From contig JANXYM010000063.1 of the NCBI GenBank assembly GCA_025350045.1, positions 1 through 45,100 of the forward strand: a stretch of 45,100 nt of DNA, given 5' to 3'. The position numbers and the translations under genes are program-made. Origin of the DNA: Methanomicrobiales archaeon (lineage in GTDB: Archaea > Halobacteriota > Methanomicrobia > Methanomicrobiales > Methanospirillaceae). A model generated the notes under the pieces. The model was given only the letters and a program-made list of their open reading frames with translations, was not told where the DNA came from and searched no databases. Below, one piece after another: positions 5,258 to 22,445 of this stretch (the first letter of the stretch is position 1; every line of letters begins with the position of its first letter).

Positions 5258-7555
5258 ATGAAGAGCCGGAATAAACGGGTATTATGGTTAATCAATCACA
5301 AAACGCTAACGGAATTTGAGCCTGAATTATTGCTCGATCTTGGTTTTGAGGTATATATTCCAAAACTCTTTCCTCAGACCATAGAGAACAGAAGTGCTGG
5401 CGTAACCTATGAATTTGACCATAATTTAACCATTCCATCTGAGGTATTGCATCGTCTCAATGGATTTAATTTTTATACCGACAAGATTACTCCCAGAATA
5501 AGGAGAGATATGAATGAATACTTCCATATCTTGTTCGTTTCGAATTTTCCTTTTATGCTTCAGGAGATTTTTACACATTTTGAAGGCCACATCATTTTCC
5601 GGGTCTTCGGACACGCTCAGGATATCACGTATAGTGGAACCTTAGAGCAGATTCTCGGAAAGGGGTTCGGAGATACGATAGAGACGCTGGGGGATCGTTT
5701 TCATTTTGGCATCGCCTACAAAGGAATTGAACTGATCGAACCACCCTATCTTAAAAATCGCGAATTATATCTTCCGATTGGACTCCCGGAACGTTTTTTT
5801 CAGAGGGAGAACAAATATACAGGGAATGATAACCGGTTATTGTTCATCTGTCCATTGATTATCGAAAGTCCGTATTATAAACATATATATTCACTGTTCA
5901 AGCACGATTTCAGTGATATTCCACACATTATTGGGGGCTGGCAGAGCAAAAAGGTGGATGATCCTTCAGTACTTGGTCAAATCGAACGAGAAGAATTCGA
6001 TCAACTGCTGGTGAATATGAAAGTAATGTATTACCACTCTCTCGAACCACGTCATATTCATTACCACCCCCTTGAAGCCATGGCCCTTGGAATGCCAGTA
6101 GTATACATGGAAGACGGGATGTTGGGGAGGCTCAAAGAAAGTGTAAATCAGCCAGGATCCTGCAAAACAATCCGTGAAGCCCGTAAAAAAATTAAAAGGA
6201 TTCTTGAAGGCGATACTGCATTAATCAACAGTATCTGTACAGAACAGAAACGATTATTAAAAATATTTACCTATGAATTCTGCCGGGATTACTGGGAAAG
6301 AAATATTATCCCCCTGATGGAAAATGAAATTCCACCGGCATCAGAAAAGGGGCAAAAAATCGCAATAATTGTCCCTGCACCCTATAAGACAGGATCTTTT
6401 GATGCAGCAAAGTTACATGCAAAAATGCTTAAAACATTAAGCGAAAAAATGAATTTAAAAATTTCAGTCGTTTTTTATTATTTAAAGGGAAATTACGACC
6501 TGAATAAAGATTTCAACGAGCTCAGGGAAAATAATATTTGTTTTCAAGAATTCGAATGGGAAGCTGTGGAGAAAAAGGTTATTGAACATATTTTACAGAT
6601 ACAGGGCAGGCTGGTAGAACTTCAATACCCAATATACTATCTCCCAAGGGACCAAAAACAGGATCTTCTTGATTGTGATCTCTGGATTTTTGTTTCAGAT
6701 ACCATGATGTATCCTCCTGCACCGTTACGCAGATATGGAATTATTATCCATGATTGTCTGAGCAGGTACTTTACCGAATACCAAAATCCGGATGTATTGA
6801 ATGGCAGGACGAATTCTGCACGAGGTGCAGATTTTATATTCACGACAATTCCTGCAACCAGAGATGATATTATTTCCTATCATGGTATATCATCGGAGAG
6901 AGTATTTGTTCTTCCTATTGAATTTGATATACCTCCCGAAGATCAGGAAAGAAAAACAGAAAATAAAGAGAATTTTTTTATCTGGCCGACAAATAAATCA
7001 CCCCACAAAAATATCACCCGAGCAGCCGAAGCCCTTCTTCTCTATTATCTGACCGGCGGGCGACTCAAAACCGTGATAACCGGATTTGATGTAGAAGATC
7101 TTGATGTGACGATTGAAAAGGATGAAACAAAGCTTCTCACGCAAGTCCAGGAATTCAGAAAACTGGTCCGGGAAAATAAAATTTTAAGGAAAAATATCAT
7201 AATACAGAAAAATTTACCAAAAAAAATATATTATGAACTTTTACAAAAAGCATGCTTTTTATGGTATCCCACTATCAGGGATAACGGATGTTTATGCACT
7301 CCTGAAGCAGGTTTTTTCAGAACTCCGGTTTTATCCGGTGAAAATGCCCAGATGCGATACTATGATTCATTCTATAAAATGAATATAGAATTTTTCAATC
7401 AGTATTCTGTTGACGAGATGGTGAGTTCGTTACACGCTATGGAGAAAATCTGGGAGAAAAAACAGGCAATGCTTCCTTCAAACGACTTTTTCTTATCCCG
7501 GATGTACAGGAACTGCTATCCGGACTATTACACCATTGTGAGGGAGATCCTATGA
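5258..7555 (+). CDS. Two-domain GT-B glycosyltransferase
   Basis: 765 residues that appear to hold two GT-B units. The first half (about 1-365) has the donor-site-like segment YHPLEAMALGMPVVYMEDG near residue 268. The second half begins at IAIIVPAPYKTGSFDAAKL (~369) and carries FIWPTNKSPHKNITRAAEAL (~575) and the WYPTIRDNGCLCTPEAGF donor motif (~670), as in GT4 enzymes. Either two sugars are added in succession or one half is structural. The gene starts directly after the ABC ATPase stop and overlaps the next gene by four bases (ATGA), so it belongs to the export operon. It is noticeably AT-rich with many AAA/AAT codons. Confidence 0.78.
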   Translation: MKSRNKRVLWLINHKTLTEFEPELLLDLGFEVYIPKLFPQTIENRSAGVTYEFDHNLTIPSEVLHRLNGFNFYTDKITPRIRRDMNEYFHILFVSNFPFMLQEIFTHFEGHIIFRVFGHAQDITYSGTLEQILGKGFGDTIETLGDRFHFGIAYKGIELIEPPYLKNRELYLPIGLPERFFQRENKYTGNDNRLLFICPLIIESPYYKHIYSLFKHDFSDIPHIIGGWQSKKVDDPSVLGQIEREEFDQLLVNMKVMYYHSLEPRHIHYHPLEAMALGMPVVYMEDGMLGRLKESVNQPGSCKTIREARKKIKRILEGDTALINSICTEQKRLLKIFTYEFCRDYWERNIIPLMENEIPPASEKGQKIAIIVPAPYKTGSFDAAKLHAKMLKTLSEKMNLKISVVFYYLKGNYDLNKDFNELRENNICFQEFEWEAVEKKVIEHILQIQGRLVELQYPIYYLPRDQKQDLLDCDLWIFVSDTMMYPPAPLRRYGIIIHDCLSRYFTEYQNPDVLNGRTNSARGADFIFTTIPATRDDIISYHGISSERVFVLPIEFDIPPEDQERKTENKENFFIWPTNKSPHKNITRAAEALLLYYLTGGRLKTVITGFDVEDLDVTIEKDETKLLTQVQEFRKLVRENKILRKNIIIQKNLPKKIYYELLQKACFLWYPTIRDNGCLCTPEAGFFRTPVLSGENAQMRYYDSFYKMNIEFFNQYSVDEMVSSLHAMEKIWEKKQAMLPSNDFFLSRMYRNCYPDYYTIVREIL

Positions 7556-9171
7556 GAAAAGATCTTGGAGTTATTTTAACCTATCCTCCTGAAATATTAT
7601 TCGGGTTCCATGGCATTCCTCGCCTGATAATGAATATTATCAAAGGGGCGCATAATAAGGGGTATAATATCACCATTATTACACCCAAGTGGAGTGAAAA
7701 AGAATTAGAGACGCTGTTAACAGAGACACTGGGTGAAAATTATAAAAATATTGACATAATAACTACAGCGAGGATTCCACCAGTACTTCATGTTCGTTAT
7801 TATCTGTTCCGGATGCAAAAATCATTAAAAAAAGGATCGTTTTTATCCGTAATTTTCCAAAAAGTGCAAAATAAAATGGAGATCGTTGTTGTACGATTAT
7901 TAGGTTCGCACAATTTTTCAAAATTTTTTGCTGCCTGCCTGTTATTACTATTTTTTTCACCGTTATTCATTCTGTATTTTCTTGAGCAATATACTCTGAA
8001 AAAAAGAAATATCCCGGGAAAACAAAATACGGATCATGGTTCATTAAAGAGAGAATTTTCTGATTATTTCGAAAAATTTTCTGATCCTGCAAAATTGTTA
8101 AAATTATTCTATTTGAACGAGAAAATATTTTCTGAATTGCTCCGTCAGGAGAACAAAAATATTGTTAAAATTACAGAAAAACAGAGAGAAAACATTCCTT
8201 ATTGGCTTATAACTACTCCATTCTGGCCGGATTTAACAAAAAACATAAAAAATTCGACAGTAATATGTCCGGATGTTGTTATCAGGGATTTCGCTGTAAG
8301 TTTTGAGCGGGAGGACTTTGGAGAGAAAATTCTCAACAGAAAAGACGATATCAGGAGAACACTGCAAACTGCAGATAAAATTATCTGTTTTAGTGAATAT
8401 GTAAAAAATAATCAGATTATTGCATCTTTTGGAAATGTTGATTTGGATAAAAAAATTTCCGTGATACCACACGGCCATATTAATCTCTCTGATGAATTGG
8501 AGATCATAAAACCATTCCATTCCATGAATAAAGTGGAACAATGGGATCTTAGCAAACAGATTATCAATACGTACACCCGGCAGATGACTTCAAATGAGTA
8601 TTTAGCAAATTTTGATTTTTCCGGGACACGGTTTCTTTTTTATAGCTCGCAGATACGGCCATCAAAAAATATTCCTGCACTCATTAAAACACTTCACCGG
8701 TTACTCCATCACAAGCATGAACCTGTCAAATTGATCTTGACCGGAAGTCCAGGTAATGCCTCAATAATGAAGCTTATTTCAGATCTTGGTTTGCAACGGG
8801 ATGTCATTTTTTTCTCAGGATTACCAACACGCGTTATGGCTGCACTGTACCATCAGGCCATCCTTGCAGTGAACCCGACATTATTTGAAGGGGGTTTTCC
8901 CTTTACGTTTTCTGAGGCATACTCTGTCGGGACACCGTCAATCATGTCCCGTATACCCGTTGTTGAAGAATTTATAACGGATCCCGATCTTCAGAAAGTG
9001 ATGTTGTTTGATCCTCACAACATCGATGATATGGTGGAACGCATCTATTGGGGTATCCATCATCGCGATGAATTGTATAACCTCCAGAAACCTCTCTATG
9101 ACCGGTTAAAAAACCGTTCCCTGGCCCAGGTAGCGCAGGAATATATCGATGTAGTAAACCATGTCGATTAG
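7552..9171 (+). CDS. GT4-family glycosyltransferase with internal membrane segment
   Basis: 539 residues. The C-terminal half is a GT4 donor-binding domain: FLFYSSQIRPSKNIPALIKTL (~355), LILTGSPGN (~395) and AVNPTLFEGGFPFTFSEAYS (~440) with the E-x7-E type pair. The N-terminal acceptor domain is interrupted by a strongly hydrophobic stretch (FFAACLLLLFFSPLFILYFL, ~124-143), which should tether or dip the enzyme into the membrane. The ATG lies in the overlap ATGA with the preceding gene, and the end overlaps the FkbM gene by 11 bases. It is very AT-rich. Acceptor and sugar are unknown. Confidence 0.82.
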   Translation: MRKDLGVILTYPPEILFGFHGIPRLIMNIIKGAHNKGYNITIITPKWSEKELETLLTETLGENYKNIDIITTARIPPVLHVRYYLFRMQKSLKKGSFLSVIFQKVQNKMEIVVVRLLGSHNFSKFFAACLLLLFFSPLFILYFLEQYTLKKRNIPGKQNTDHGSLKREFSDYFEKFSDPAKLLKLFYLNEKIFSELLRQENKNIVKITEKQRENIPYWLITTPFWPDLTKNIKNSTVICPDVVIRDFAVSFEREDFGEKILNRKDDIRRTLQTADKIICFSEYVKNNQIIASFGNVDLDKKISVIPHGHINLSDELEIIKPFHSMNKVEQWDLSKQIINTYTRQMTSNEYLANFDFSGTRFLFYSSQIRPSKNIPALIKTLHRLLHHKHEPVKLILTGSPGNASIMKLISDLGLQRDVIFFSGLPTRVMAALYHQAILAVNPTLFEGGFPFTFSEAYSVGTPSIMSRIPVVEEFITDPDLQKVMLFDPHNIDDMVERIYWGIHHRDELYNLQKPLYDRLKNRSLAQVAQEYIDVVNHVD

Positions 9172-9880
9172 CACGATGAAAGATGTAAAAACAACATTTT
9201 ATGGACAATTCGACCCTCCTGTCGACAAACTGCTTTACCAACATTATTTTCAGGATTATGAAAAGCCAGGCTTTTTTGTGGAATGCGGCGCATTTGACGG
9301 AATAACCGAATGCAGTTGCAAATTTTTTGAAGAGACAATGCATTGGAGCGGTATCAATATCGAACCATCTCCTTGTATTTTTGAACAATTAACGAAAAAC
9401 AGGCCACACTCTACCAACGTGAATGCAGCTCTGTCAGATAAAAATGGATATTCGGTCTTTAACCAGGTCATTCACCCGGAATTCGGGGAATTGTGTACGA
9501 ATGGATCGCTATGCCATACCCCACAACATTTCAAACTTCTTGAGGATAGCGGCTGTTCATTTAAGGAATATAAGGTAAGGACCACAACCTGGAGGGATCT
9601 TATCAGGGATTTAAGGATTAGATCCGTTGATCTCCTGGTCCTTGATGTGGAAGGAGCGGAACACATGGTGATTGAGGGGATGAGAAAATGTTTCGTCCTG
9701 CCAAAAATCCTCTGCGTGGAACACGGGCATGTGGGGGGCGTAGATGCGGTAAAAAAGATGCTGGACCCTCTCGGTTATACATATGATTTCAGCTCAGAGG
9801 CAAATTCGTTTTTTGTCTTTTCATATCCTTTAAAAAAATACACCGGTATTCTTCGATCCTCCATCCTGTCAGGATTCTGA
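9161..9880 (+). CDS. FkbM-family SAM methyltransferase
   Basis: 239 residues. The SAM-binding motif is FFVECGAFDGITECSC (~33-48), followed by the acidic strand INIEPSP (~65-71) and the third motif DLLVLDVEGAEHMVIEGM (~164-181), the hallmark of FkbM O-methyltransferases. Cluster members often cap or decorate glycans. It overlaps the upstream glycosyltransferase by 11 bases; a second in-frame ATG at 9176 is an alternative start. It is the last gene of the island, and AT content drops after the following intergenic region. Confidence 0.88.
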   Translation: MSISTMKDVKTTFYGQFDPPVDKLLYQHYFQDYEKPGFFVECGAFDGITECSCKFFEETMHWSGINIEPSPCIFEQLTKNRPHSTNVNAALSDKNGYSVFNQVIHPEFGELCTNGSLCHTPQHFKLLEDSGCSFKEYKVRTTTWRDLIRDLRIRSVDLLVLDVEGAEHMVIEGMRKCFVLPKILCVEHGHVGGVDAVKKMLDPLGYTYDFSSEANSFFVFSYPLKKYTGILRSSILSGF

Positions 9881-10690
9881 GTCATCTTCCAATGATTCCT
9901 GGTGTAAAACGGTGGATGAAGAAGAAACAAGGTATGCATCCAAGGATTATAATGCAGAAACGAAGAAAAAGACTGGAAGAGTTTTACCAGGAAAGGGAGA
10001 GAAAAAAAATTATTTTTGGAATACATCGTTGCATCATTTAATTCAGCCATACAAATTTTTCCCGGGTATTTCAGGATTCCGTAATGAATGTTGTCAGGGT
10101 ACGGTGTCAATACAGCCCCTGAATCGTTTAATTTCCATGACGATATTTTCCGTAAAGTTTTCGTATCCGAAACTGAAATGAAAAAAATGACCGTATCTTG
10201 TCAGTATATCTTTTCACGGTCTGAAAATCGAATGCTTATCAATCGCGGGGTCGGTATTGTGAAAGCGGGGGGATAGAGACATGGTTAAAGCCCCCGTAAT
10301 TTCAGAGAGCGGACAGGATTTTCCGAGAGGTATAAAAATTAAGAGTTCTCCCGGAAAAAACCAAGCCCTCTGAAATGCGGAGGAGCAGCTGAAGAACCAC
10401 GACCAGATGTTTCATTATTCTTAAGGCAGAACTGTGGCCCCCTGTGCGGTTCTGTTATTAAAAGAATGATTGTCACTCTCTGACTGCATCAATCCATCTG
10501 ATCCCTGTATCACCGGTGACTGTACCCTTTTAAAAATCAGGATACTCTCCCCGGTTTCTATACGGAGTGCTGACAAAGGGTACATGATATCTCTGTTATC
10601 TCATGCAAGATGCAAAAAAAGGAGGATATATCGGTAATTCGTTTTCTGACCCGAAAATGAGAATCCCTTGGTTAAGAAAAACATTTTTTT
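9881..10690. other. 810-bp intergenic region between convergent genes, with structured elements
   Basis: No credible protein gene. It contains a C/G-run hairpin (CGGGGG 10266-10271 with CCCCCG 10291-10296) and a TATA-like GGTATAAAAATT near 10329-10340. A 9-bp inverted pair ATTTCAGAG/CTCTGAAAT flanks that TATA, and a 10-bp inverted repeat lies at 10521-10584. The short frames present lack family features and ribosome sites. Confidence 0.5.
10521..10584. repeat. Long hairpin with 10-bp perfect stem
   Basis: TGTACCCTTT (10521-10530) pairs with AAAGGGTACA (10575-10584). The loop of 44 bases has its own smaller pairing (CTCC..GGAG around CCGGTTTCTATACGG). It lies between two convergent genes and is too far from either stop to be a simple terminator, so a structured RNA is possible. 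Confidence 0.45.
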
Positions 10691-12631
10691 TCAATTTCCA
10701 ATCCATTTCCCGACAACCGGTGTCCAGCCGGGGGCTCCGAAGGAGTAGTACGTTGAGGTTGCGCCACTCCCGGTGCCAACCTTATCGACATACCACGAAC
10801 CATCCCGGTTGATGCCGATCATGGTCTTGACCGTGGTAACATTGATGTACCCTGTCCGCACTTTCGTATCGCTGCCTTCAGCATTACTCGCGGCTAAGGA
10901 GACCGTATAATTACCTGCCAGCAGGTACGTGTGCACGGGATTCTGTACGGTTGCATTCGTGACATTGCCATCACCAAACGTCCAGAGCCATGCAGCTGGC
11001 AGATTTGCTGAGCGGTCCGTAAAAGTTACGGTGAGGGACAAATTTCCGCTCGTCGGGGTTCCGGTGAAATCCGCAACAGGAGCGGCAGGAGGTGCAGCTG
11101 CAAGTGCACGGTATGCATCCAACCGTCCGCCCGTGCTGACTTTTCCGGAAAGAGAAGGTTTTGTTGCAACGGTCGAAAGGATGATATTTTTAATCTCTAT
11201 GGCTGTCAGCGACTGGTTTTTGGATTTAACCAGCGCCGCAACACCGGAAACATGAGGTGTTGCCATCGAGGTCCCCTGCATAGGGGTGTAACCCCCGTTA
11301 TAATAGGTGCTTAGAATATTCGTGCCCGGGGCAGAGAGGTCTACAGAAACCGGACCATAATTTGAGAACGATGCAAGGAGATCGTTATGATCGGTTGCAG
11401 CTACCCCGATGATATTTGAAGAAGTGTAATTGGAGGGATAATTAGGATTGGTACCATCGTCATTATTTCTACCATCATTCCCCGCTGCACAGACAACTAC
11501 TGCCGGAGAAGCATCAATCGCATCCTTGAGGGATTGTGAATAACCTCCACCACCCCAAGAGTTACTGATCACGGAGGCACCATTTGCATTTGCGTACAGG
11601 ATCGCTGAAACGGCATCGGACGTTAATCCCGTTCCCCCACTATTCAAAAATTTCAGGGCCATAATTCTTGTATGCCAGTTTACCCCCGTCACGCCAAGGG
11701 CATTGTTTCCCACGGCACCGATGGTTCCTGAAACATGGGTTCCATGACCGTTATCATCAACCGGATCGAAGGTATTGGTGATAAAATTCCACCCATGGAC
11801 ATCGTCGATGTAACCATTATGGTCATCATCGATACCGTTACCGGGAATTTCTCCCGGATTTGTCCAGATATTTGCCGAAAGGTCACTGTGGGTATACAGC
11901 ACCCCGGTATCAACTACCGCAACAATGATATTGTTTGATCCGGTTGAAAGATCCCATGCAGGCGTTGCGTTGATATCCGCACCCGGGGTTCCTCCGGTCT
12001 GCCCGGTGTTTTTGAGTCCCCACAATGAGGTAAAGGATGGATCATTGGGGGTTGCAAAAATATGCAGGGGATCTGCACCCTGAACGAACGAACCTGCTTC
12101 ACCGGGCGGGATAGAGATAATATAATCCGGTTCTACATACAGGACATCAGGATTCGACTGGTACTCTTTAATCGCAGATTGCACATCCATTCCGTCTGCC
12201 AGTTGGACAACCTGCAATCCGGAAACACCTTCGGAACCGAAATCTTTCTTTACCGTTGACCCGACCTTGGCATTTGCTAGGCGTATTTTGTCATTTGATG
12301 GAGAAAAAGCGCTATTGCTCTGGGATTTAAACCGGACGATCACACGGTCAGCAACATATTTTCGCCCGTAGACAGGATCCATGGTAACCATAACCGGGGA
12401 CGTCTCAAGGGAATCAGTAGTGTCTGTCGGGGAAATTCCCCCGGAAACGCCATTTGATTGAGGAGAGAGAATTGCTGATTCGTTGAAGGTCAAATTTTTT
12501 GAGGAGGGGGGGGAGGAGAGTGCATGAGCCCCCGGATAATTCACAGACAGATTCATATCTTCTGCACTGATCGGTTGTATTATTATGAAGAGAATCGCAA
12601 GCCCCAGACAACATATTCCTACTGATTTCAT
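10691..12631 (-). CDS. Secreted subtilisin-like (S8) protease with PKD domain and one FG-GAP-like repeat
   Basis: 646 residues from the ATG at 12631, chosen because GAGGT lies four bases upstream; an ATG at 12646 would add five. There is a signal sequence to about residue 23. An I9-like propeptide (~90-172: VADRVIVRFKSQS, LYVEPDYII) comes first. The catalytic domain has D241 (VAVVDTG), H296 (NGHGTHVSG), N385 (CAAGNDG) and S455 (GTSMATPHVSG). A PKD domain follows (~517-598, WTFGDG). A final ~44-residue segment (DGSWYVDKVGTGS, FGAPGWTPVVG) matches the repeats ending the multicopper oxidase upstream. It is a complete, probably active exo-protease, surface-held or released. The role of the tail is unknown. 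Confidence 0.93.
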   Translation of the reverse strand: MKSVGICCLGLAILFIIIQPISAEDMNLSVNYPGAHALSSPPSSKNLTFNESAILSPQSNGVSGGISPTDTTDSLETSPVMVTMDPVYGRKYVADRVIVRFKSQSNSAFSPSNDKIRLANAKVGSTVKKDFGSEGVSGLQVVQLADGMDVQSAIKEYQSNPDVLYVEPDYIISIPPGEAGSFVQGADPLHIFATPNDPSFTSLWGLKNTGQTGGTPGADINATPAWDLSTGSNNIIVAVVDTGVLYTHSDLSANIWTNPGEIPGNGIDDDHNGYIDDVHGWNFITNTFDPVDDNGHGTHVSGTIGAVGNNALGVTGVNWHTRIMALKFLNSGGTGLTSDAVSAILYANANGASVISNSWGGGGYSQSLKDAIDASPAVVVCAAGNDGRNNDDGTNPNYPSNYTSSNIIGVAATDHNDLLASFSNYGPVSVDLSAPGTNILSTYYNGGYTPMQGTSMATPHVSGVAALVKSKNQSLTAIEIKNIILSTVATKPSLSGKVSTGGRLDAYRALAAAPPAAPVADFTGTPTSGNLSLTVTFTDRSANLPAAWLWTFGDGNVTNATVQNPVHTYLLAGNYTVSLAASNAEGSDTKVRTGYINVTTVKTMIGINRDGSWYVDKVGTGSGATSTYYSFGAPGWTPVVGKWIGN

Positions 12632-13154
12632 GGTAACCTCATTCATCTATTGGAAGTCTTCCAAAGCGAATAAATCCTATGTCATAATAGTATGGCAGAG
12701 ACATGAATTTACTGGTTGTTACCTGTACAACCCTATTATTGTCAGCACCCGTGCTGGCAGGGAACTAAAAGGTAAATGGTGATGGGCGAATCTGAACAGA
12801 ATATTGCATACATTTTTGAGAAGACCGTCATTCAATGATTTTTTTCTCCCCAAAGGATCATTCCAGGAAATTGTCTGGGGCATCGGTACTGTCCTGTTTC
12901 CATGCGGGAACAACAAAGCTGATCAGCATTTTTGAGCAGGATATGGGGGAAAACCATTCAGCCGATACATTCGGTTTTTTATCAGTTCCTGAAGTTAAAA
13001 AGAGAAGAAAATTAGGCTCTGGATAAAATCTATTATTATCAAATAACACATTCAGGTTTTTGAGATTTCGAGTGTGATCCCCTCACTCCTCTAAGGGAGA
13101 GGCAAACCCGGCGGAGTACCCTCTTTTCATCTGATAGGATCCAATCCCTGTGTC

Positions 13155-13190
13155 ACTATCGCCATGGAGGGTTGCCATAGCGGCGGGGGC
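13155..13190. repeat. Dispersed intergenic module, copy 1
   Basis: ACTATCGCCATGGAGGGTTG followed by CCATAGCGGCGGGG. It aligns with 18438-18472 and 23434-23468; all three share GG(A/G)GG...CATAGCGGC-GGG. A small hairpin CCTCT..AGAGG lies just upstream (13088-13102), and copy 2 has a related hairpin on the same side. Confidence 0.6.
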
Positions 13191-13267
13191 AGGACCGAAA
13201 AGCTCCCCGGAGCGTGGAAACATTGTACCTGAGTATGAGATATGGATGATTTTGTATAAAATTCGTG

Positions 13268-13287
13268 GGATAAATAATAGTTTATCC
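13268..13287 (-). terminator. Probable terminator of the multicopper oxidase gene
   Basis: GGATAAA / TTTATCC inverted repeat with a six-base loop, about 60 bases past the stop codon. It is reached on the minus strand through T-rich sequence (TTGTTTATTTTT). Confidence 0.45.
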
Positions 13288-13348
13288 AATTGGTAAAAAT
13301 AAACAATTTTTTAAAGATCTCCCTACGAAAAAAAGGGTTTTGTTCTTA

Positions 13349-16300
13349 TCACCACACTCCGGTTATGGGCGTGAAGCCGGGTGATCCGAAGACATAGTAG
13401 GTCGATGTCGCTGCACTCCCTGTGCCGACCTTATCGAGATACCAGGAACCATTCTGGTAGACACCAAGCTCGGTTATCCTGTCCCCATTCCAATCGGCTA
13501 CAACAGGAGTCCAACCGGGTGCTCCGAAGCCGTATAAGGTTGCAGTTGCTGCACTTCCTGTGCCGACTTTATCGAGATACCAGGAACCATTCTTGTAGAT
13601 ACCAACCTTGGTTTTCCCGTCCCCATTCCAGTCGCCCACAACCGGCTTCCAACTGGGTGCTCCGAAGCCGTATAAGGTTGCAGTTGCTGCACTTCCTGTG
13701 CCGACTTTATCGAGATACCAGGAACCATTCTGATAAACGCCAATCTTGGTTTTCCCATCCCCGGTCCAATCGCCTACAACAGGAGTCCAACCGGGTGCTC
13801 CGAAGCCGTAAAAGGTTGCAGTTGCTGCACTCCCGGTGCCGACCTTATCGAGATACCAGGAACCATTCTGGTAAACGCCAATCTTGGTCTTCCCATCCCC
13901 GGTCCAATCGCCCGTGACATTTTGCCACCCCGGTGCTCCGAAGGAATAGTAGGTTGCAGTGGGTACATTTGCTGTTCCGTTTTTATCAAGATACCACGAA
14001 CCATTCTGGTAGATGCCGATTTTCACATTCGACAGTATCTGGGTTGCTACATTCGACGGCGTAGAATTCACTGCAATATTCGGATAACCAACAGTTCCGG
14101 AATACACGGTGGTATCGCCGACCACGTTGGTTGCCATGACCCGGTAGTAGTACGTTGTATTCAATGCAACCGGTGCATTGTTATACGTCACCATACCGCC
14201 GGATTGCGGTCCTGTTGTTGACGGGGCCCGGGCAATATCAATCCATGGCCCGGCCAAGCTCAGCGCTCTCTGGATGCTCCAGTTTGTTTCAGAGACTGAA
14301 TTATCCTTCCAGGTCAGCGTCACATTAGGACTGGTGTTAGGTCCGATCCACTTGGCTGTGAGGTTTGACGGGGGTATCCGCGGGGCTACTGCTACCGCCT
14401 GCGAGCGCATCATATCCTGCTCTTCATGGCCCAGCAGGTGGCAGTGCCAGACATATTCCCAGCCAAAGTTGACCATGCGGTTCACAACCGGGGCCTGTCC
14501 GCCACTCGGATCCAGACCTATGAACTCCATCGGGGCTGATGAGCCCAGCGGAGTGAGCGGGTTGAGAGGCCGGATACTGTTGGGAAGTTCCCAGGGAAGT
14601 ACGGGCTTGATTGGCCTCATTGCCACGATGATATCTTCCAAGGCATTTACCTGGACCGATTCTTTCCAGCCCAGCTCATTTTCATGGGGTGGGAGAACTG
14701 TTCCGTCCCAGCTGATCCGGTTGATCACCTGGAGATTATACATGTGCCAGTGCATGATATGGGTGTCCACACCGTTATGGGTGAACTTCCAGATCTGGGT
14801 ACCGTCCCCGAGGGTGCCGATCAGCGCCGTGCTTCCTTCGGAGTTGTTGAAGACCTCGGTGGGGGGATCTGCATACCCGTACCCTATCGCCTGCTCAAGA
14901 TTCGTAGAAGACCGGGGGATCTCCACGCCCAGCACCGCAGTGATACGGCCATAATTGGGTTCAAAGCCTTCAACAATCGCCTTTGGAATCATGTTCATGG
15001 TTACCGGGGCAGCTGCTCCCATGGGAGTGAAGGTAACCGACGTGTTCTCAAGCTTGACATAGTTGTTCGTGTTCACTGCGCCAAAGGGCGTGTTGTATGC
15101 CGCCTGAGGTACTATGGGTTTGTCCTGGTACACTGCATAGGCAGCCGGCAACGCGGTATTCAGGTTGGCCCTGTTGTAGGCCGCGGTATTACCGAGCGTC
15201 GTGTTGACCTGGATCTGCATGATCGTCCGCGTGTTGGGACCGTATCCTGCAAGGGTTGTAGGTGCACCACCGATTGCCGTCTGATCTGCATCGCCCGTGT
15301 AGAAGTCGTACCGTGTGTCAAAACCCGGAGCCGGCGCAGGTGCATCGTTGTAGAGGATCAGTTTGGCACCGTTCGGATAGCCTGAGAAGTCCACGATAAC
15401 ATCGGCCCGTTCAGCGGGCCCGAGATAGAGTGAATGGTTCGTAACCGGAATGACTACGGTGCTTCGCAGCAGGGTGTTATACCCGATGGGCGTGGCGTTG
15501 ATCACCGCAGGTGCGGGCAGGAATCCGCCTTCAGTACCGATCTGGATCCATTGCGGACCGCGTGTTGTTGGATCGGGTACTCCTCCGGGCCTGAGATCTG
15601 TTGGCCATTCTGCCGGCCAACCGGCAGTCGGCACCGCCGGAACCATCGTGACTTCACCGGAACTCTTGTTCAATAATGCCGTTCCGGCCCACATAGGGGC
15701 GCTGGACGAAGCATTATACAACTGCAGGTTCCAGAACCGTTCCTGTGCTGCATTCAGGATGCGGAACCGGACCGCTGTTGCTCCTACCTGTACAACCGGG
15801 TAGGGATTACCATTGACCATGGGGGTATCCAGGAAAGTTTCCGGTACCTGTGAGGGGTTGAGGGTTCCGGGCATCCGCGGGGGCTCCCAGGGTGCGAGGA
15901 CAGGATCGTAATAGGTGTTGGGTAAATCCGGGTGAAGGAACCCCATACGCGGGGGCTGGGCCCAGGCACCATAGTCCCACCGGCCCATAGGATTCACGCC
16001 GAAATTCTGAAGGTTCTGGGCGGGCATGTAGACATGCGGATAATACAGCTCACCGCTCTTTGGCCATGCACGCGATGCATTTGCTCCCCAGTTCCAGGTA
16101 GGATCCTGGTTTTGCATCTGGGTCGCATTGGGCACAAAACTCTTGTCCTGGATAACCAGCGGCGTCCCGACACCGGGAAGAACCGTCAACAGGCCGGGGT
16201 TGGCGCCGGCAACGTTGGTACCGTAGATAAGATCCTTCTCAGTCTGGTCCGTGACAAGGTAACCGGCTGCTTCACCGGCATACACGTTAAGACGGGTAAT

Positions 16301-17554
16301 GCCCATCGCATGATCGTGGTAAAACATCAGCCGGGCACTCTGCTGGTTGGTATAGTAGAACGTCAGGGTTCCCACGGGTTCCACGCCACCATCCATATCC
16401 GGGACGTTTTTCACACTGACACCTTCAGGATAGGAGGTAACCTGCCCTGCCGGGGTTGTCCACTGGTGCGGCGTACCGTCGCTGATCCAGGGGGTGTTGC
16501 CGCCATGCAGGTGAAGCGTAGCACGGTTCTCGGTATAGTCACCTGCACCCGCGCCTAAGGGACCGTTTCCTTGTCCCATGATCGTATGGTCCGTCGGTAT
16601 GAACAGATTCCCATTCGTACCGGTACCGAGGTAATTGTGGAACTTGATACGGGTTGCCCTGTCTTTCGTAGCGATAATGAGCGGGCCAAGGTAATGGGGA
16701 TTTTCATACGCAAAGACCTGGGCACCAACGGCATTCAATATCGGACTGCCATTCAGATACCTCAGGGCAAGATGCTTGCTGCCGGGCCCGGCGTTTGCGG
16801 GCGTCTCGAGCTGAACATAGCCACGGAGTGTCGTACTGTTGAGATCCGAATGCATCTGCTCGACATAATCTACCAGGGCTATCTCATAACTGTCGTTATT
16901 GGGATAGGAGGTTGTATCAGCAACAGCAACGGGGATGTATTGCCCGAGATTGTTTGCTCCCAACGGTCTAAGTCCTGGCAGAGTATCAACGAACTTCCGG
17001 ATACCGGTCCCGGCGGTTGCATTCCCGAGGGCATCGGCAGGGACGGGAAGCTGACTGAGCGCGTAATTAGCGTTCGTGCCAAAATAGTCCGGCGGTCCTC
17101 CGGGTGAAGGGGGGGCGACCATGATTGAATTCCCGCCCGTAGTGGTTTTTGGCTGACCGAGACCCAGTGCCTCAGCACGGTCTGCTGCGGCAAACCTGTC
17201 GGCAGTGGTGATGTTATGCATCCTCATCACTTTGTGGTCAATAAATGCCTGCTCCAGAACCGGGTCTGCGACCCCCAGCTGCTGAACACTCGGCATATTG
17301 ATCTCAGGTGTAGGTGAGGGTGTTCCAATCAGAGTCTGACTCACTACTGAGCCCGTGACTGGCTGAATCTCGGGGGCAGCTGGGGTTACATTCAGGGTCT
17401 GGATTACTGGCGCAATTGTTGCACCAGTACCGGACTCTGCACTCACCAGACTGCAACTCATCACAAGCAATATCCCGATAATGAATATCAATCGGATTAT
17501 TTTGCTATCACATGTTGGAGTGTTTTTTTCTCCAAACGATCGGTTGCGCATCAT
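13349..17554 (-). CDS. Giant secreted multicopper oxidase with FN3 and FG-GAP-like repeats
   Basis: 1401 residues from the ATG at 17554. I chose it over upstream codons because GGGAG lies six bases before it and a TATA box (17619-17628) places transcription between it and the longer start. A signal anchor (IIRLIFIIGILLVMSCSLVSA) is followed by cupredoxin domains. All copper ligands are present: H348-L-H350, H413-D-H415, H932-x2-H935-W-H937, H1037-C1038-H1039 with H1043 and M1048. An FN3-like domain (~1067-1160) and five 46-residue repeats (GSWYLDKVGTGS...FGAPGWTPVVGDW.GDGKTK) finish the protein. The closest classes are CotA, bilirubin-oxidase and phenoxazinone-type enzymes that reduce O2 while oxidising phenols, metals or pigments. 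The substrate is unknown. Confidence 0.92.
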   Translation of the reverse strand: MMRNRSFGEKNTPTCDSKIIRLIFIIGILLVMSCSLVSAESGTGATIAPVIQTLNVTPAAPEIQPVTGSVVSQTLIGTPSPTPEINMPSVQQLGVADPVLEQAFIDHKVMRMHNITTADRFAAADRAEALGLGQPKTTTGGNSIMVAPPSPGGPPDYFGTNANYALSQLPVPADALGNATAGTGIRKFVDTLPGLRPLGANNLGQYIPVAVADTTSYPNNDSYEIALVDYVEQMHSDLNSTTLRGYVQLETPANAGPGSKHLALRYLNGSPILNAVGAQVFAYENPHYLGPLIIATKDRATRIKFHNYLGTGTNGNLFIPTDHTIMGQGNGPLGAGAGDYTENRATLHLHGGNTPWISDGTPHQWTTPAGQVTSYPEGVSVKNVPDMDGGVEPVGTLTFYYTNQQSARLMFYHDHAMGITRLNVYAGEAAGYLVTDQTEKDLIYGTNVAGANPGLLTVLPGVGTPLVIQDKSFVPNATQMQNQDPTWNWGANASRAWPKSGELYYPHVYMPAQNLQNFGVNPMGRWDYGAWAQPPRMGFLHPDLPNTYYDPVLAPWEPPRMPGTLNPSQVPETFLDTPMVNGNPYPVVQVGATAVRFRILNAAQERFWNLQLYNASSSAPMWAGTALLNKSSGEVTMVPAVPTAGWPAEWPTDLRPGGVPDPTTRGPQWIQIGTEGGFLPAPAVINATPIGYNTLLRSTVVIPVTNHSLYLGPAERADVIVDFSGYPNGAKLILYNDAPAPAPGFDTRYDFYTGDADQTAIGGAPTTLAGYGPNTRTIMQIQVNTTLGNTAAYNRANLNTALPAAYAVYQDKPIVPQAAYNTPFGAVNTNNYVKLENTSVTFTPMGAAAPVTMNMIPKAIVEGFEPNYGRITAVLGVEIPRSSTNLEQAIGYGYADPPTEVFNNSEGSTALIGTLGDGTQIWKFTHNGVDTHIMHWHMYNLQVINRISWDGTVLPPHENELGWKESVQVNALEDIIVAMRPIKPVLPWELPNSIRPLNPLTPLGSSAPMEFIGLDPSGGQAPVVNRMVNFGWEYVWHCHLLGHEEQDMMRSQAVAVAPRIPPSNLTAKWIGPNTSPNVTLTWKDNSVSETNWSIQRALSLAGPWIDIARAPSTTGPQSGGMVTYNNAPVALNTTYYYRVMATNVVGDTTVYSGTVGYPNIAVNSTPSNVATQILSNVKIGIYQNGSWYLDKNGTANVPTATYYSFGAPGWQNVTGDWTGDGKTKIGVYQNGSWYLDKVGTGSAATATFYGFGAPGWTPVVGDWTGDGKTKIGVYQNGSWYLDKVGTGSAATATLYGFGAPSWKPVVGDWNGDGKTKVGIYKNGSWYLDKVGTGSAATATLYGFGAPGWTPVVADWNGDRITELGVYQNGSWYLDKVGTGSAATSTYYVFGSPGFTPITGVW
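13352..14020 (-). repeat. Five tandem 138-bp coding repeats (FG-GAP-like)
   Basis: The marker ATACCA(G/C)GAACCATTCT recurs at 13439, 13577, 13715, 13853 and 13991, exactly 138 bases apart. It encodes 46-residue units ending GDW(T/N)GDGKTK, the Ca2+-loop-like signature of FG-GAP/VCBS propeller repeats. Copies 2-4 (from the N-terminal side) are nearly identical at DNA level. The first and last diverge more, as expected for unequal crossing-over. A single related unit closes the neighbouring protease gene. Confidence 0.9.
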
Positions 17555-17618
17555 ACCATTCTCCCAAAATGAAATCATGACAGAGAGGGTAGAAGCACAA
17601 TTCCATCGAAGGAAAAAC

Positions 17619-17628
17619 ACTTTATACC
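17619..17628 (-). promoter_or_regulatory. TATA box of the multicopper oxidase gene
   Basis: GGTATAAAGT on the minus strand. Transcription would begin near 17600, about 45 bases before the ATG at 17554, and after any longer start codon. Confidence 0.55.
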
Positions 17629-18163
17629 CATTGTCAGGATATTTCCTCATGTGTTATCAAAATTAATAAACATTGTGATCGCCCTTTTTAAATAAAAATT
17701 TCATCATCTGGGAATCCAGAAACGAGACAGGATCAGACCACGGAAATTTTTCGTTCAGGAAAATAATTTCGGGTTGCGCACCGGATATACGGGAGGTTTT
17801 ATTTATTTTCCGGAATGTCATACCATTCAGAACAGAGGTTATGGAACTGATAGGAGCAGATATTCAGAAGAAGAGGTAATTTCCACTGAAACAAGTAAGA
17901 AGGGGGTGAAAAGGAATCTGAAATTCAGGGTACCGGAAAATATCTCCTGTATCAGGGGAAGCTGCGGGAAAAATGGATTTCCTGGCGTTGGGAAAAAATT
18001 GATCCGGAGCAATGCACATGAACGGGTGTTTGCACCAGGACAATGAAAACCGGCCCCTCTCGTGTTTTGCACGAGCAGAACGGGACGTAGTTCAATTTTT
18101 CTGGCTTTGTTGAAATCCTGTATTCTTTTGATTGACTTCCTCTTATCGGCTGTTTGGAGGCTT

Positions 18164-18596: not shown

Positions 18597-19844
18597 TTAT
18601 CGCCCTTCACTCCGTATGGCATCGTAGGGATTCATTAGACTACTCCAGTATGCCGGCCACAGTGAAGAGATGCTGCCGATTGCAATGACCATGAGCAACG
18701 TCAGAAAAGCCATAGAACCGATAGCAACAAATGAGGGCATGCGGAATGAAACCTGAAATGCACTGTCGAGCACACCCAGCGCGTTGAGCAGGGAGAAGCT
18801 GACCAGACTCACCCCCACGCCAACCATGCTCCCTAAGGCAGAGAGAACCAGTGATTCTGACATCACGAGAAAGAAGATGACCCTTTTCTTCGCACCCATT
18901 GATTTGAACAGCCCAATCTCCCGCTGGCGTTCATGGGCAACCATGGCCGCAATGAGTGCTATGAGGGGAAAAGCAGCTGCTACAACGAATATGGAGATTA
19001 TATTCAGGAGAGCAGGCAGACCCTGGATCTCCTGTGAAACGGGATCCAGGGTAAAATGTCTCTGAATGACTTTAAGATAGGAATAGGAGAAGGGCTGCTG
19101 GATACGGGATTTAACCATCCCGGCATCTGCCCCGGGAGCTACCCGCACGAGGACTGCATTTACATCCCCGGGACCGATGCGGGGGGATGACAGAGGCACA
19201 ATACCCTCTGCAGCAGCAAGGGTATAGGCATCATCCATCCGGAGGAAGACGGTATTATCAACCGAGGACTGCGTGGGATCCAGTCTGCCGGCAATAGTAT
19301 ACGAGTGACCGGACAGGGCAATCTGCGATGATATCCTGCCGGATATCTCACTCCCGACCAGCACTTCACCGGGTCCGAGAGGAGTGTTCAGGGGGGTATG
19401 CAACCAGGACCGGATGGTAAAATCCGTTGCCGGATCAATCCCAAAGATATCAACCGGGGCTGGCGACAATGCCGGTACATCCAGCGTTGCCACATAGAGT
19501 TGCGGGCTTATAGCTGAAACTCCTGAAACATTCCTGACCTTTTCCATGACATTGGCGTTGATACGGAAGAGCGAGGGTTCGACCTTGACAATCGCAATGG
19601 TATTTTCCGGTGCGTTGTCACCATTCCTTAAGTGTGCGATGTACTGGGATGCCACTACGATATGGTCAGCCCCCATACGGGAGAGCCCCTGGTCTACATT
19701 CAGAGCCGTACCTGCAAAAAGGAACTGCACGAAAAAAATATTTGCAGCAATAAAAGCAAAACAGAAGATTGTCGCCAGGTTGCGACCGGGTTTATTCCGG
19801 ATGCTGGCAGCGAGAAGGGTTAGGTAATTCATCTTTTTGTTCAT
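18597..19844 (-). CDS. FtsX/MacB-like ABC transporter permease
   Basis: 415 residues. TM1 is at ~19-40 (LATIFCFAFIAANIFFVQFLFAG). A large extracytoplasmic MacB-type domain follows (~45-270, GADHIVVASQYIA, SGVSAISPQLYVATLDVPALS). Three C-terminal TM segments carry the FtsX signature AAMVAHERQREIGLFKSMGAKKRVI between the first two. It is the third gene of a minus-strand operon, nine bases after the ATPase gene. MacB-type systems do not move solute across the bilayer but transmit ATPase work to the outside, for lipoprotein extraction, peptide export or hydrolase control. The substrate is unknown. A decayed copy of its 3' end lies at 22245-22445. Confidence 0.88.
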   Translation of the reverse strand: MNKKMNYLTLLAASIRNKPGRNLATIFCFAFIAANIFFVQFLFAGTALNVDQGLSRMGADHIVVASQYIAHLRNGDNAPENTIAIVKVEPSLFRINANVMEKVRNVSGVSAISPQLYVATLDVPALSPAPVDIFGIDPATDFTIRSWLHTPLNTPLGPGEVLVGSEISGRISSQIALSGHSYTIAGRLDPTQSSVDNTVFLRMDDAYTLAAAEGIVPLSSPRIGPGDVNAVLVRVAPGADAGMVKSRIQQPFSYSYLKVIQRHFTLDPVSQEIQGLPALLNIISIFVVAAAFPLIALIAAMVAHERQREIGLFKSMGAKKRVIFFLVMSESLVLSALGSMVGVGVSLVSFSLLNALGVLDSAFQVSFRMPSFVAIGSMAFLTLLMVIAIGSISSLWPAYWSSLMNPYDAIRSEGR

Positions 19845-19853
19845 GACGAATCC

Positions 19854-20573
19854 TTAATCGTTCACATTCGCACCGGGTTCAACCGCCCGCTTCCGGGATG
19901 AGAGGGATTCATCACTCATCACCATTTTTCCCCGCGTCATCCGGTAGGTTCGTGTCACATACTGAACAAGGTCCGGGTTATGGGTGACCATGACAATGGT
20001 GGTCCCTTCACGGTTCAGATCCCGGAAGAGCTCCATGATCTCAATCTCCGTATCGACATCCAGGTCACCGGTCGGTTCATCTGCGATCAGGAGAGAGGGG
20101 GCATTTATCAGCGCCCGGGCGATTGCCACCCGTTTCATTTCGCCGCTTGAAAGGGTGCAGGGGTAGGCATCAGCCCGCTCCGACATCCCCACTTTCCTTA
20201 ACAGATCAACCGCCCGTGTCCGGGAACCGGGTCCATCAGGGCAGAAGAGTGTCGGGAGCATCACGTTCTCCAGAGCAGTTATGGTGGGAATCAGCCCGGA
20301 GAACTGGAACACAAATCCAATCTCTTTCGCACGCAACTCGGATATAGTGTCATCGGAAAGATTGCTGATATCTGTACCGTTTATCCGTATCGTACCGGTA
20401 GTGGGACGGGTAAGACCGGAGAGCATGCCGAGAAGCGTGGATTTTCCGCTGCCCGAACGTCCCAGAATCAGGACGAATTCCCCGGATTTTACTGCGAAAT
20501 TGACATTGTCGACTGCAAGAACGTCTGAGCAGTCGGTAGCGAATGCTTTTGTAATCCCAATAACTTCTATCAT
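19854..20573 (-). CDS. LolD/MacB-type ABC transporter ATPase
   Basis: 239 residues. Walker A GRSGSGKST (~38-46), Q-loop FVFQFSGLIPTITALENV (~91), signature LSSGEMKRVAIARAL (~142), Walker B LLIADEPTGDLD (~161) and H-loop VTHNPDL (~199). The DEPTGDLD sequence is typical of the LolD/MacB/FtsE class. Its ATG overlaps the upstream permease stop (ATGA), and it probably pairs with both permeases as a heteromeric complex. Confidence 0.93.
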   Translation of the reverse strand: MIEVIGITKAFATDCSDVLAVDNVNFAVKSGEFVLILGRSGSGKSTLLGMLSGLTRPTTGTIRINGTDISNLSDDTISELRAKEIGFVFQFSGLIPTITALENVMLPTLFCPDGPGSRTRAVDLLRKVGMSERADAYPCTLSSGEMKRVAIARALINAPSLLIADEPTGDLDVDTEIEIMELFRDLNREGTTIVMVTHNPDLVQYVTRTYRMTRGKMVMSDESLSSRKRAVEPGANVND

Positions 20574-21781
20574 GATTCTCCCTTTCTTATGGTTTCATAC
20601 GGTTCTGAACGGTTGATAAGCATAGCGGGATAAAGCGATGAGATTCCGCCAATCGCTATGCAGAGGAACAGGGTACTGCACCCGTCGACCAGTAATGTCA
20701 TCGGTGAAGGAACGATAAGCGGGATTTTTAAGGAAAGCGAGATAAAATCCTGAAAACCCATCAGGATCACTACCGCAGTTCCAATCCCGATCAGCCCCCC
20801 TAAAACCGCGATAGAGAATGACTCTGCCAGCATAAGCCATATCACGTAGCTTTTTGTTGCACCGAGTGCCCGGAGGATCGCAACTTCCCGCCGCCGTTCA
20901 TGGGCAACCATGGCTGAGATGAATCCAAGCAGCGGGATGGCTATTGCCGTTACTGCGAGCATTGATCCATAGAGGAGGCGGGTTACTGCACCCAACTGTC
21001 CGCTCACGGCGTTCAGCAGACCATTGGGCGTGATGGTTTTGGTTCCCGGAATCTGCCTGCGGATCTCGCTGGCAACCGCAACGGGTGATGCAGCCGGATC
21101 AACCTTTACCAGTACCGCAGAAACCCTCCCCTTGGGAATGGTCAGTTTCTGCACCGCTTTTATACCGGACTCATCAGCCATAACGTACGCATCTTCAATC
21201 CGGGAAAAAACCGAACAGTCAATCCCCATACCGGTTCTGTCGAGCCTGCCAACGATGTGAAAGGTATGACCATAAAACAGGAGATCCGAACCGATATCTC
21301 CTAAAATCTGGCTGCCCACAATAATATCGTTTTTTCCGAGCGTTACCCCGGGATTCTCTTTTAACCAGGCAGATACGGTAAAGTCATGGGAAGGATCTAT
21401 TGCAATAATCTGGACCGGCGCAGAGCAACAGGCCTGCCCGGATAATGTACCGACATAAATCTGGGGACTGGCTTTTGCCACACCGGGTATCCGGGAAATC
21501 TGCTCAAAACCGGAATCCTTAAAGAAGAACGTGGTCGGCTCTCCCATGAGGATAATCGTTTCGGCTTGTTTGTTATACTCCTCCGGCACAACAAGGATAT
21601 CGGCACCCATCCGGGATATACCGGCATCCAGGCTTTCCTGTGCACCACCAATAAGGTACTGGGCGGAAAACAAAGTTGCTGCTATGATGGCAATGGCAAA
21701 AATGGTAGCAATGTTCCGGTACGGGCGGTTGGCAATGTTGCGGAGGACGAGCTCGAAAAAATGCAGATCAGGCTTTGTCAT
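20570..21781 (-). CDS. FtsX/MacB-like ABC transporter permease (first of operon)
   Basis: 403 residues with the same plan as the third gene: TM1 (ATIFAIAIIAATLFSAQYLIGG), an outer domain (GADILVVPEEYNK, VAKASPQIYVGTLSGQACCSAP), then three C-terminal TMs with AMVAHERRREVAILRALGATKSYV. A CC pair near residue 117 is absent from the sister permease. The start ATG has GGAG five bases upstream (AAGGAGTGAAATG). Two diverged permeases plus one ATPase point to a heterodimeric exporter or mechanotransducer. Confidence 0.88.
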   Translation of the reverse strand: MTKPDLHFFELVLRNIANRPYRNIATIFAIAIIAATLFSAQYLIGGAQESLDAGISRMGADILVVPEEYNKQAETIILMGEPTTFFFKDSGFEQISRIPGVAKASPQIYVGTLSGQACCSAPVQIIAIDPSHDFTVSAWLKENPGVTLGKNDIIVGSQILGDIGSDLLFYGHTFHIVGRLDRTGMGIDCSVFSRIEDAYVMADESGIKAVQKLTIPKGRVSAVLVKVDPAASPVAVASEIRRQIPGTKTITPNGLLNAVSGQLGAVTRLLYGSMLAVTAIAIPLLGFISAMVAHERRREVAILRALGATKSYVIWLMLAESFSIAVLGGLIGIGTAVVILMGFQDFISLSLKIPLIVPSPMTLLVDGCSTLFLCIAIGGISSLYPAMLINRSEPYETIRKGES

Positions 21782-22214
21782 TTCACTCCTTTTTCCCGAT
21801 GAGATACTCTCAGATAATGATACCCGCTATCCCCGGTATCGCGGGTGCGGATGGCACGAACCCCTTCAATACGATCAGCCAGTCTGCACATACCCGTCAG
21901 AACCCCGGAAAACAAAGTGACGGGGAGAGCATGTGCAGTACTGAATATACGGTAACCTGCCATGGTCACCGTTCCCCCTTTACTATGAGAAGATCTCGCG
22001 ACAACAACAATGATACTCCGATCCCGATTTCAGCTCTTCTGTTCACCTGAAAGACAGGGTAAAATTCATCCCGGTTTTTGTTTCGACAAAAGGCTTCACA
22101 TCCAGCAGACGGGAAAAATAATCCAAGGGGTCAGCATACTGACAATTCCGGAGAGACCCCGCAGGAGACCTTTTCCGCGTGCCATGTTGTCCGATTTTAT
22201 CGTAACTAACAGAT
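21782..22214. other. 433-bp region upstream of the FtsX operon
   Basis: Apart from the minus-strand ribosome site of the permease gene near 21786, I see no gene. The stretch just before 22235 is AT-rich (GGATAATATTTATTTAAAG) and marks the edge of the permease remnant that follows. Confidence 0.4.
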
Positions 22215-22244: not shown

Positions 22245-22445
22245 TCACTTTTCCTGATGAATGCTCAAGGGTTACTCAACAGCGCACTCCAGGTTTCATT
22301 CCGGATGCCCACGCTCATAGAGATCGGTTCTATGGCGGGTCTGGCATTGCTTGTGGTCATGGTGATTGGTAGTGTTGCATCGCTCTGGCCTGCGTACCAG
22401 AGCAGCCTGATGAATCCCTACGATGCGATTCGGAGAGAGGAGTGA
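22245..22445 (+). pseudogene. 3' remnant of an FtsX-like permease gene
   Basis: The encoded tail (LNSALQVSFRMPTLIEIGSM, then SLWPAYQSSLMNPYDAIRREE) is the last ~65 residues of a permease very like the one at 18597-19844 (LDSAFQVSFRMPSFVAIGSM, SLWPAYWSSLMNPYDAIRSEG). It lacks TM1, the outer domain and two TMs. The DNA match begins abruptly near 22240 after AT-rich sequence, and the fragment lies on the opposite strand. An open frame from 22215 exists, but no intact gene does. It is best read as a leftover of duplication and rearrangement. Confidence 0.82.

Follow-up and report, generated by a model that had tools for sequence, protein, structure and literature searches.

The window analysed here, a stretch of 45,100 nucleotides from a Methanomicrobiales archaeon (GenBank GCA_025350045.1, contig JANXYM010000063.1; bases 1-45100 of contig C39 in our assembly G000), encodes on its reverse strand a long multicopper oxidase (MCO). 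That the gene specifies a real, intact-looking MCO is firm, and such an enzyme is unexpected in a methanogen. Judged from its sequence, it is an intact-looking copper oxidase of more than double the normal length, predicted to be secreted and of a kind that is common in some bacteria, and the methanogen probably acquired it from them. The function that we favour, with a probability of about 0.5, is that of a surface oxidase of the large OmpB/MofA-like kind, which would oxidise reduced metals or organics and hand their electrons on to trace O2. In those titles, abstract openings and passages that were read from the literature on multicopper oxidases in methanogens, in Methanoregula and in Methanomicrobiales, the protein was not described.

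The oxidase gene and its copper sites

The open frame of the MCO gene extends over 13349-17650 (-) and would give 1433 residues from its first ATG; we take the in-frame ATG at 17554 as the best start, since GGGAG stands six bases 5' of it (by eye) and a hydrophobic export segment follows it. This segment is the single hydrophobic stretch of the 1401-aa product (best 19-residue window at residues 19-37, score 2.7, with no window above 1.6 elsewhere), and by hydropathy alone it agrees with the export proposed in the first-pass annotation. That annotation had also described a complete MCO with every T1 and T2/T3 copper-ligand motif in place, and the description holds. In the numbering of the full open reading frame (ORF), from which 32 is subtracted to obtain that of the 1401-aa product, the ligand motifs are, in order, HLHG at 380, HDHAM at 445, HIMHWH at 964 and HCHLLGHEEQDM at 1069, the last containing Cys 1070 and the axial Met 1080. 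Together with the cupredoxin domains, these give the HxHG, HxH, HxxHxH and HCHxxxHxxxxM series, in that order, by which the superfamily is recognised, and all four align with the motifs of CotA. The MCO identity is not a chance resemblance, because the single window protein matches CotA-type chains in phmmer with E 2e-25, and a profile made from 16 family members matches CotA laccase across its length with E 1e-57. A strict motif scan of 81 long cores, those left once the five of the 86 rows that fell below 650 aa had been removed, found all four motifs in 66; the other 15 include cropped or contig-end sequences as well as possible real variants.

With 1401 aa against the 513 aa of CotA, the protein is indeed oversized, as had been claimed, and it begins with some 180 residues of N-terminal extension, which are followed by a core of about 890, a segment that by eye is fibronectin III (FnIII)-like, and five repeats. 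Part of the extra length is family-wide, since the family profile exceeds CotA by tens of residues between aligned blocks in several places, and the extensions supply the rest. A Pfam scan of the FnIII-like segment of the window (14051..14383) gave no match at E values up to 1, and Pfam fn3 was found in the C-termini of five of the eight homologues tested, among them that of G041, which we take to be Methanosphaerula palustris E1-9C and which is a single contig carrying a long-MCO homologue. The C-terminal repeats were earlier called adhesive; the repeats themselves stand, as five FG-GAP-like units of 46 residues, while the adjective is an inference. One such unit also ends the subtilase encoded downstream of the MCO, which suggests a shared surface module. 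A bacterial long MCO from Nitrospirae GWC2_56_14 (L035, 1549-5370) has C-terminal repeats resembling those of the window (39% over the repeat region), and the repeat module may travel together with the oxidase.

Host genome

The genome had been called methanogen-like, and this is borne out by mcrA in the same assembly (E 7e-151) and by both domains of archaeal Nre, which are encoded within the window. The host is probably a methanogen of Methanoregula type, in the family Methanoregulaceae. The assembly comprises 2.53 Mb in 121 contigs and is 95.9% complete with 2.2% contamination; an archaeal 16S gene was searched for in it and not found. We considered that the contig might be a contaminant and rejected this, because the window carries the archaeal Nre, because relatives share the three ABC genes flanking the MCO (8 to 10 of them have MCO-linked cassettes with identities of 55-74%), and because long-MCO homologues are also present in G041 and G050, assemblies of one and two contigs. 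In a plasmid collection 54 records matched the protein; among the best 20 of these 54, one covered at least 80% of the query, at 24% identity, and no clear member of the long family was seen.

Distribution and phylogeny

Sister genomes, in which the first-pass annotation had proposed to look, do hold the gene: the family profile matched 18 of the 232 genomes of the window's order, and 13 of them, M. palustris included, carry a long-family gene, which in five (G040, G062, G222, G223 and G227) reaches a contig end. The remaining matches are one contig-end fragment (G053) and four genomes that have short, CotA-sized forms alone. All 13 long-family genomes of the order fall in one family; M. palustris E1-9C is a member of the Methanoregulaceae (PMC4645200). 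Phylum-wide, 20 of 392 genomes matched, outside the order mostly with shorter frames; two further families have long frames (G1181 and G1093) and one has a partial frame (G1157). The most matches among the groups searched came from the bacterial class of G262, with 120 of 277 genomes matching through long and short forms and about 84 of the 120 (a hand count) having a best E printed as 0; we take this class to be Desulfuromonadia, with three of its members presumably Geobacter species. In the phylum of G237, 49 of 395 genomes matched, short forms included. Short CotA-like MCOs of Methanomicrobiales (G031, G098, G103, G118 and G050; frames of 638-768 aa) are 22-36% identical to the window MCO over parts of their length. 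G050 has several MCO-like matches, short and long, in 10 matched stretches, with additional frames of 985 and 1974 aa.

The evolution of the long family was followed in a 41-row tree, a hand-picked subset of long cores with the window MCO and ten other methanogen copies; the truncated copy of G222 was left out of it, and that of G223 is in none of the oxidase trees. The ten other methanogen copies group (support 99/99) with five bacterial copies, three of them from two groundwater 'Deltaproteobacteria' metagenome-assembled genomes and the other two being L131 and L085. The window MCO lies outside this methanogen group and also outside the Geobacter-type group, and the row closest to it by identity is bacterial (L134, 59%). 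It has a long branch and its exact position is weakly supported (91/78 and 87/74). When two further archaeal copies were included in a second tree, the result was in agreement. Monophyly of all the methanogen copies was rejected (approximately unbiased (AU) test, p 0.0009). Since the window MCO falls outside the clade of the other methanogens, the sequences point to at least two acquisitions, and transfer of the long MCO from bacteria to archaea on at least two occasions is likely; we infer the direction because the gene is spread more widely among bacteria.

The first-pass annotation had raised placement among the CotA and bilirubin-oxidase groups, and the answer is divided: the ligands and domains are held in common with these three-domain enzymes of about 500 aa, and in an 87-row tree, which gave a long-branch warning, the long family is separate from six short MCOs, with four short methanogen MCOs outside it. 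The window MCO is thus better described as a member of this distinct long family than as an enlarged CotA or bilirubin oxidase. A count of labels on this tree that returned one change for methanogens was set aside, as it skipped unlabelled bacterial rows and has no bearing on the number of transfers.

The neighbouring ABC cassette and DUF4418

The context first offered for the MCO consisted of rubrerythrin (36581), MntP (37176) and MsrB (39889); these genes exist, but they lie 19-22 kb away and carry little weight. The neighbour that does recur is an FtsX-type ATP-binding cassette (ABC) transporter with DUF4418, which in the window is formed by two permeases (PermA and PermB), an ATPase and a degraded DUF4418 gene (Table 1).

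Table 1. Position of the multicopper oxidase, its parts and the adjoining genes in the window
Feature	Position	Strand	Evidence
Long multicopper oxidase (MCO), 1401 aa	13349..17554	-	ORF, ligand motifs, CotA match
Presumed signal peptide, a hydrophobic segment at about residues 17-40 in the 1401-aa numbering	17435..17506	-	Hydropathy alone
Family core that entered the trees (ORF residues 208-1100), which aligns with the three CotA domains and has family-wide insertions	14351..17029	-	
FnIII-like segment	14051..14383	-	By eye
Five 46-residue FG-GAP-like repeats, MCO C-terminus	13349..14026	-	
Subtilase encoded downstream, with PKD and, at its C-terminus, a single MCO-type repeat (71% over 45 aa)	10691..12646	-	
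FtsX/MacB-type permease PermB of the cassette	18597..19844	-	Pfam; recurrent near MCO
ABC ATPase of the cassette	19854..20573	-	Pfam; recurrent near MCO
FtsX/MacB-type permease PermA of the cassette	20570..21781	-	Pfam; recurrent near MCO
Degraded DUF4418 gene with in-frame stops, adjoining PermA	21871..22209	-	tblastn E 2e-15

For each of the other 12 long copies in the order the flanking sequence was read, several copies lying on short contigs. An FtsX-type permease and ATPase were found near the long MCO in G019, G025, G050, G051, G056, G062 and G223, and about 6.5 kb off in G227; in G040 the MCO is split over contigs, with one piece abutting the permease. With the window counted, ten of the 13 long copies are near such a transporter, usually with DUF4418, and the G053 fragment is also near FtsX-type ABC genes. 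The window MCO is co-directional with the cassette and lies on its opposite side, and in several relatives the MCO is divergent from the cassette. Intact DUF4418 genes stand next to PermA in relatives (with Pfam identity for two copies), and across 120 relatives DUF4418 is present in eight of the nine genomes with a long MCO against 6 of the 111 others (Fisher 3e-8, uncorrected for kinship), or, with the G053 fragment counted, in 9 of 10 against 5 of 110 (Fisher 2e-9, likewise uncorrected). The window genome enters these counts through an intact DUF4418 gene on its contig C19 (L151, 9079-9492). This C19 gene lies near genes that by eye resemble cobalt/nickel-type energy-coupling factor (ECF) transporters. 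DUF4418, on which a full-text search of the literature gave a single paper, thereby gains a genomic link to a copper oxidase.

In its tree, PermA of the window falls together with the MCO-linked copies of nine genomes (98/97). It is 63-70% identical to these, and 43-53% to the seven copies of five genomes that have no long MCO; in the PermB tree the relationships were not settled. The window MCO does not group with the MCOs of those nine genomes. Such a mismatch would arise if one MCO had been exchanged for another in place, and also if the cassette were older and independent.

Two further observations concern the same genes. At 22257-22445 (+) a short frame resembles, by eye, the C-terminal end of another FtsX-type permease and is perhaps the remnant of a second cassette. 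In another methanogen family, a contig (L150 of G118, 5270-17189) carries a short CotA-like MCO together with two FtsX-type ABC sets and DUF4418.

Possible function

The complete trinuclear site of CotA-like MCOs normally couples one-electron oxidation to the reduction of O2. Located on the cell surface or in its matrix, the window MCO would take single electrons at its T1 copper, supplied either by a reduced metal ion (Fe(II), Mn(II) or Cu(I)) or by an organic compound. Upon oxygen intrusion its trinuclear site would reduce O2 to water. Its role would be that of a surface O2 sink and/or a metal oxidase, outside energy metabolism, and the adjoining FtsX-type transporter, with DUF4418 where that is intact, may aid maturation, metal supply or surface assembly.

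Several points weigh against a surface oxidase served in this way by the cassette. Methanogens are strict anaerobes. The cassette was not seen in the stretches read around three of the 13 copies of the order (G041, G221 and G222), nor near the G1181 and G1093 copies outside it, and because the DUF4418 gene of the window is broken, the window cassette itself may be decaying. In the sequence read around the methanogen copies of the order, which for some of them is short, the bacterial partners MofC, SCO1 and FKBP were not recognised. AlphaFold models of the core with the FnIII-like part (A2, 8 rows; pLDDT, the predicted local distance difference test score, 30.7) and of the C-terminal repeats alone (pLDDT 38.5) were both unusable. 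According to passages of a 2008 survey, all 21 anaerobic archaea examined were copper non-users (PMC2147054).

An enzyme of this family could also act without O2, binding or exchanging electrons with insoluble Fe(III) or Mn(IV) oxides as an OmpB-like mineral contact for the methanogen. We regard this as unlikely, although the class that we take to be Desulfuromonadia is the richest in matches and fn3 recurs among the homologues. The long family is in keeping with what is described for OmpB of Geobacter, which the passages cited name as necessary for the reduction of insoluble Fe(III) oxide (PMC5566968, PMC3495685), and for the OmpB homologue of Geobacter soli the cited passage gives transcripts 5.7-fold higher on one solid acceptor (PMC6013743). 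However, the mechanism of OmpB is itself unproven, no MofC-like gene or other cytochrome partner was recognised beside the methanogen copies (in G051 an unassigned frame that contains one CXXCH lies about 1.8 kb away from the MCO), and the EXXE counts (one in the window MCO, 0-5 across 15 homologues) are uninformative, the motif being too short to mean much.

A role in copper tolerance, as a cuprous oxidase that turns toxic Cu(I) into Cu(II) outside the cell in the manner of CueO or PcoA, seems to us improbable. Two bacterial long MCOs (L037 and L131) do stand beside CusB-like and resistance-nodulation-division (RND) efflux genes, L131 with NosL as well, and DUF4418 has conserved Cys, Met and His residues (by eye). 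Against this, no copper efflux gene was noticed beside the window MCO or the other methanogen copies, in a reading that included no search aimed at efflux genes, and the match of CueO to the window MCO is weak (E 2e-5).

The gene might instead be a passenger, transferred from bacteria with its frame still open and having no selected role in this strain. Its phylogenetic isolation from the other methanogen copies, the broken DUF4418 gene next to it, its patchy distribution and a GC content at third codon positions (GC3) of 0.64 in the core, against 0.48 in the subtilase, would all fit. That GC3 nevertheless lies inside the range of the measured window genes (0.36-0.65), the frame of 1401 codons is intact with every ligand motif kept, and the pairing of MCO and cassette recurs in other genomes, which leaves a passenger rather improbable.

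Least probable, and very much so, is a ferroxidase for high-affinity iron uptake, of the Fet3-Ftr1 type or of the Fet type with an ABC transporter: the cassette, with its two permeases and one ATPase, is built like FetBCD, which in the passages cited stands beside FetMP in Campylobacter (PMC6083913, PMC10783030), but the reading is weakened because P19 (PF10634, FetP) was found in none of the 120 relatives, G000 included, and FTR1 above the cut-off in none of them (two weak matches lay below it, neither in G000), and DUF4418 has 0 occurrences in PMC6083913. The cited passages list, for the Fet cluster, an FTR1-family permease, P19, a DUF2318/YHS membrane protein, two permeases, an ATPase and thioredoxins (PMC6083913, PMC10783030). 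Membership of DUF4418 in that cluster was considered and dropped, as these passages did not confirm it.

If active, the surface oxidase that we favour would be relevant to how methanogens in wetlands get through pulses of oxygen, or to how they exchange electrons with metals; O2-reducing copper enzymes are unexpected in strictly anaerobic methanogens, and those of this family may run copper-dependent redox chemistry outside the cell. With a homologue in a cultured species, the genome taken as M. palustris, the question is testable. A bolder proposal, which we consider speculative and unlikely as a whole, is that the bacterial-derived long MCO and a dedicated cassette of an FtsX-type ABC transporter and the membrane protein DUF4418 would together provide cytochrome-independent extracellular electron exchange with metals in Methanoregulaceae, the cassette being a distinct archaeal system for MCO maturation or assembly into which different MCOs are swapped. 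If true, hydrogenotrophic methanogens would contribute to the redox cycling of Fe and Mn or keep O2 away from their surface.

Comparison with known systems

CotA laccase (1gsk) and bilirubin oxidase are the best solved relatives of the window MCO, with the same three cupredoxin domains, four ligand motifs and axial Met, but the window MCO has in addition its N-terminal extension, the family-wide insertions and the C-terminal modules. The short MCOs of Methanomicrobiales belong to the same superfamily and the same order, and the four of them that entered the tree are placed outside the long family; CueO and PcoA share the MCO fold.

A likeness in several respects to OmpB (GSU1394) of Geobacter sulfurreducens and MofA of Leptothrix discophora is suggested by the large size, by the predicted export signal and by fn3 in five of the eight homologues tested, though not in the segment of the window MCO itself; this was judged from published descriptions, the sequences of GSU1394 and MofA being outside our comparison set. 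In the passages cited, OmpB is an extracellular MCO that has a fibronectin III domain as well as EXXE motifs, which bind Fe(III), and that is homologous to MofA (PMC5566968). The same passages place MofC (a cytochrome c) and/or SCO1 in the OmpB/MofA clusters, with the peptidyl-prolyl isomerase MofB in those of other bacteria and not in the G. sulfurreducens cluster (PMC5566968). He et al. (2017, PMC5566968) also report mofC and a chaperone near MCOs that have no homology to OmpB, so that this synteny is not diagnostic.

In our set, FKBP, SCO1 and MofC-like neighbours were found in five bacterial loci (L036, L128, L133, L185 and L188). For L133, FKBP and SCO1 were assigned by Pfam, and the MofC-like gene has a periplasmic-binding domain below the cut-off and one CXXCH; the neighbours in the other four were assigned by similarity to L133, so that 'MofC-like' is used here without a true MofC sequence. 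A gene at 3596-4288 of L200 (G1181), about 1.5 kb from the long MCO, resembles an FKBP-type isomerase by eye and was unmatched by BLAST with the bacterial FKBP. The methanogen copies of the order differ from the OmpB/MofA clusters in being accompanied mostly by the ABC transporter and DUF4418 in place of mofB, mofC and SCO1; likened by description, the window MCO probably belongs to the OmpB/MofA-like group.

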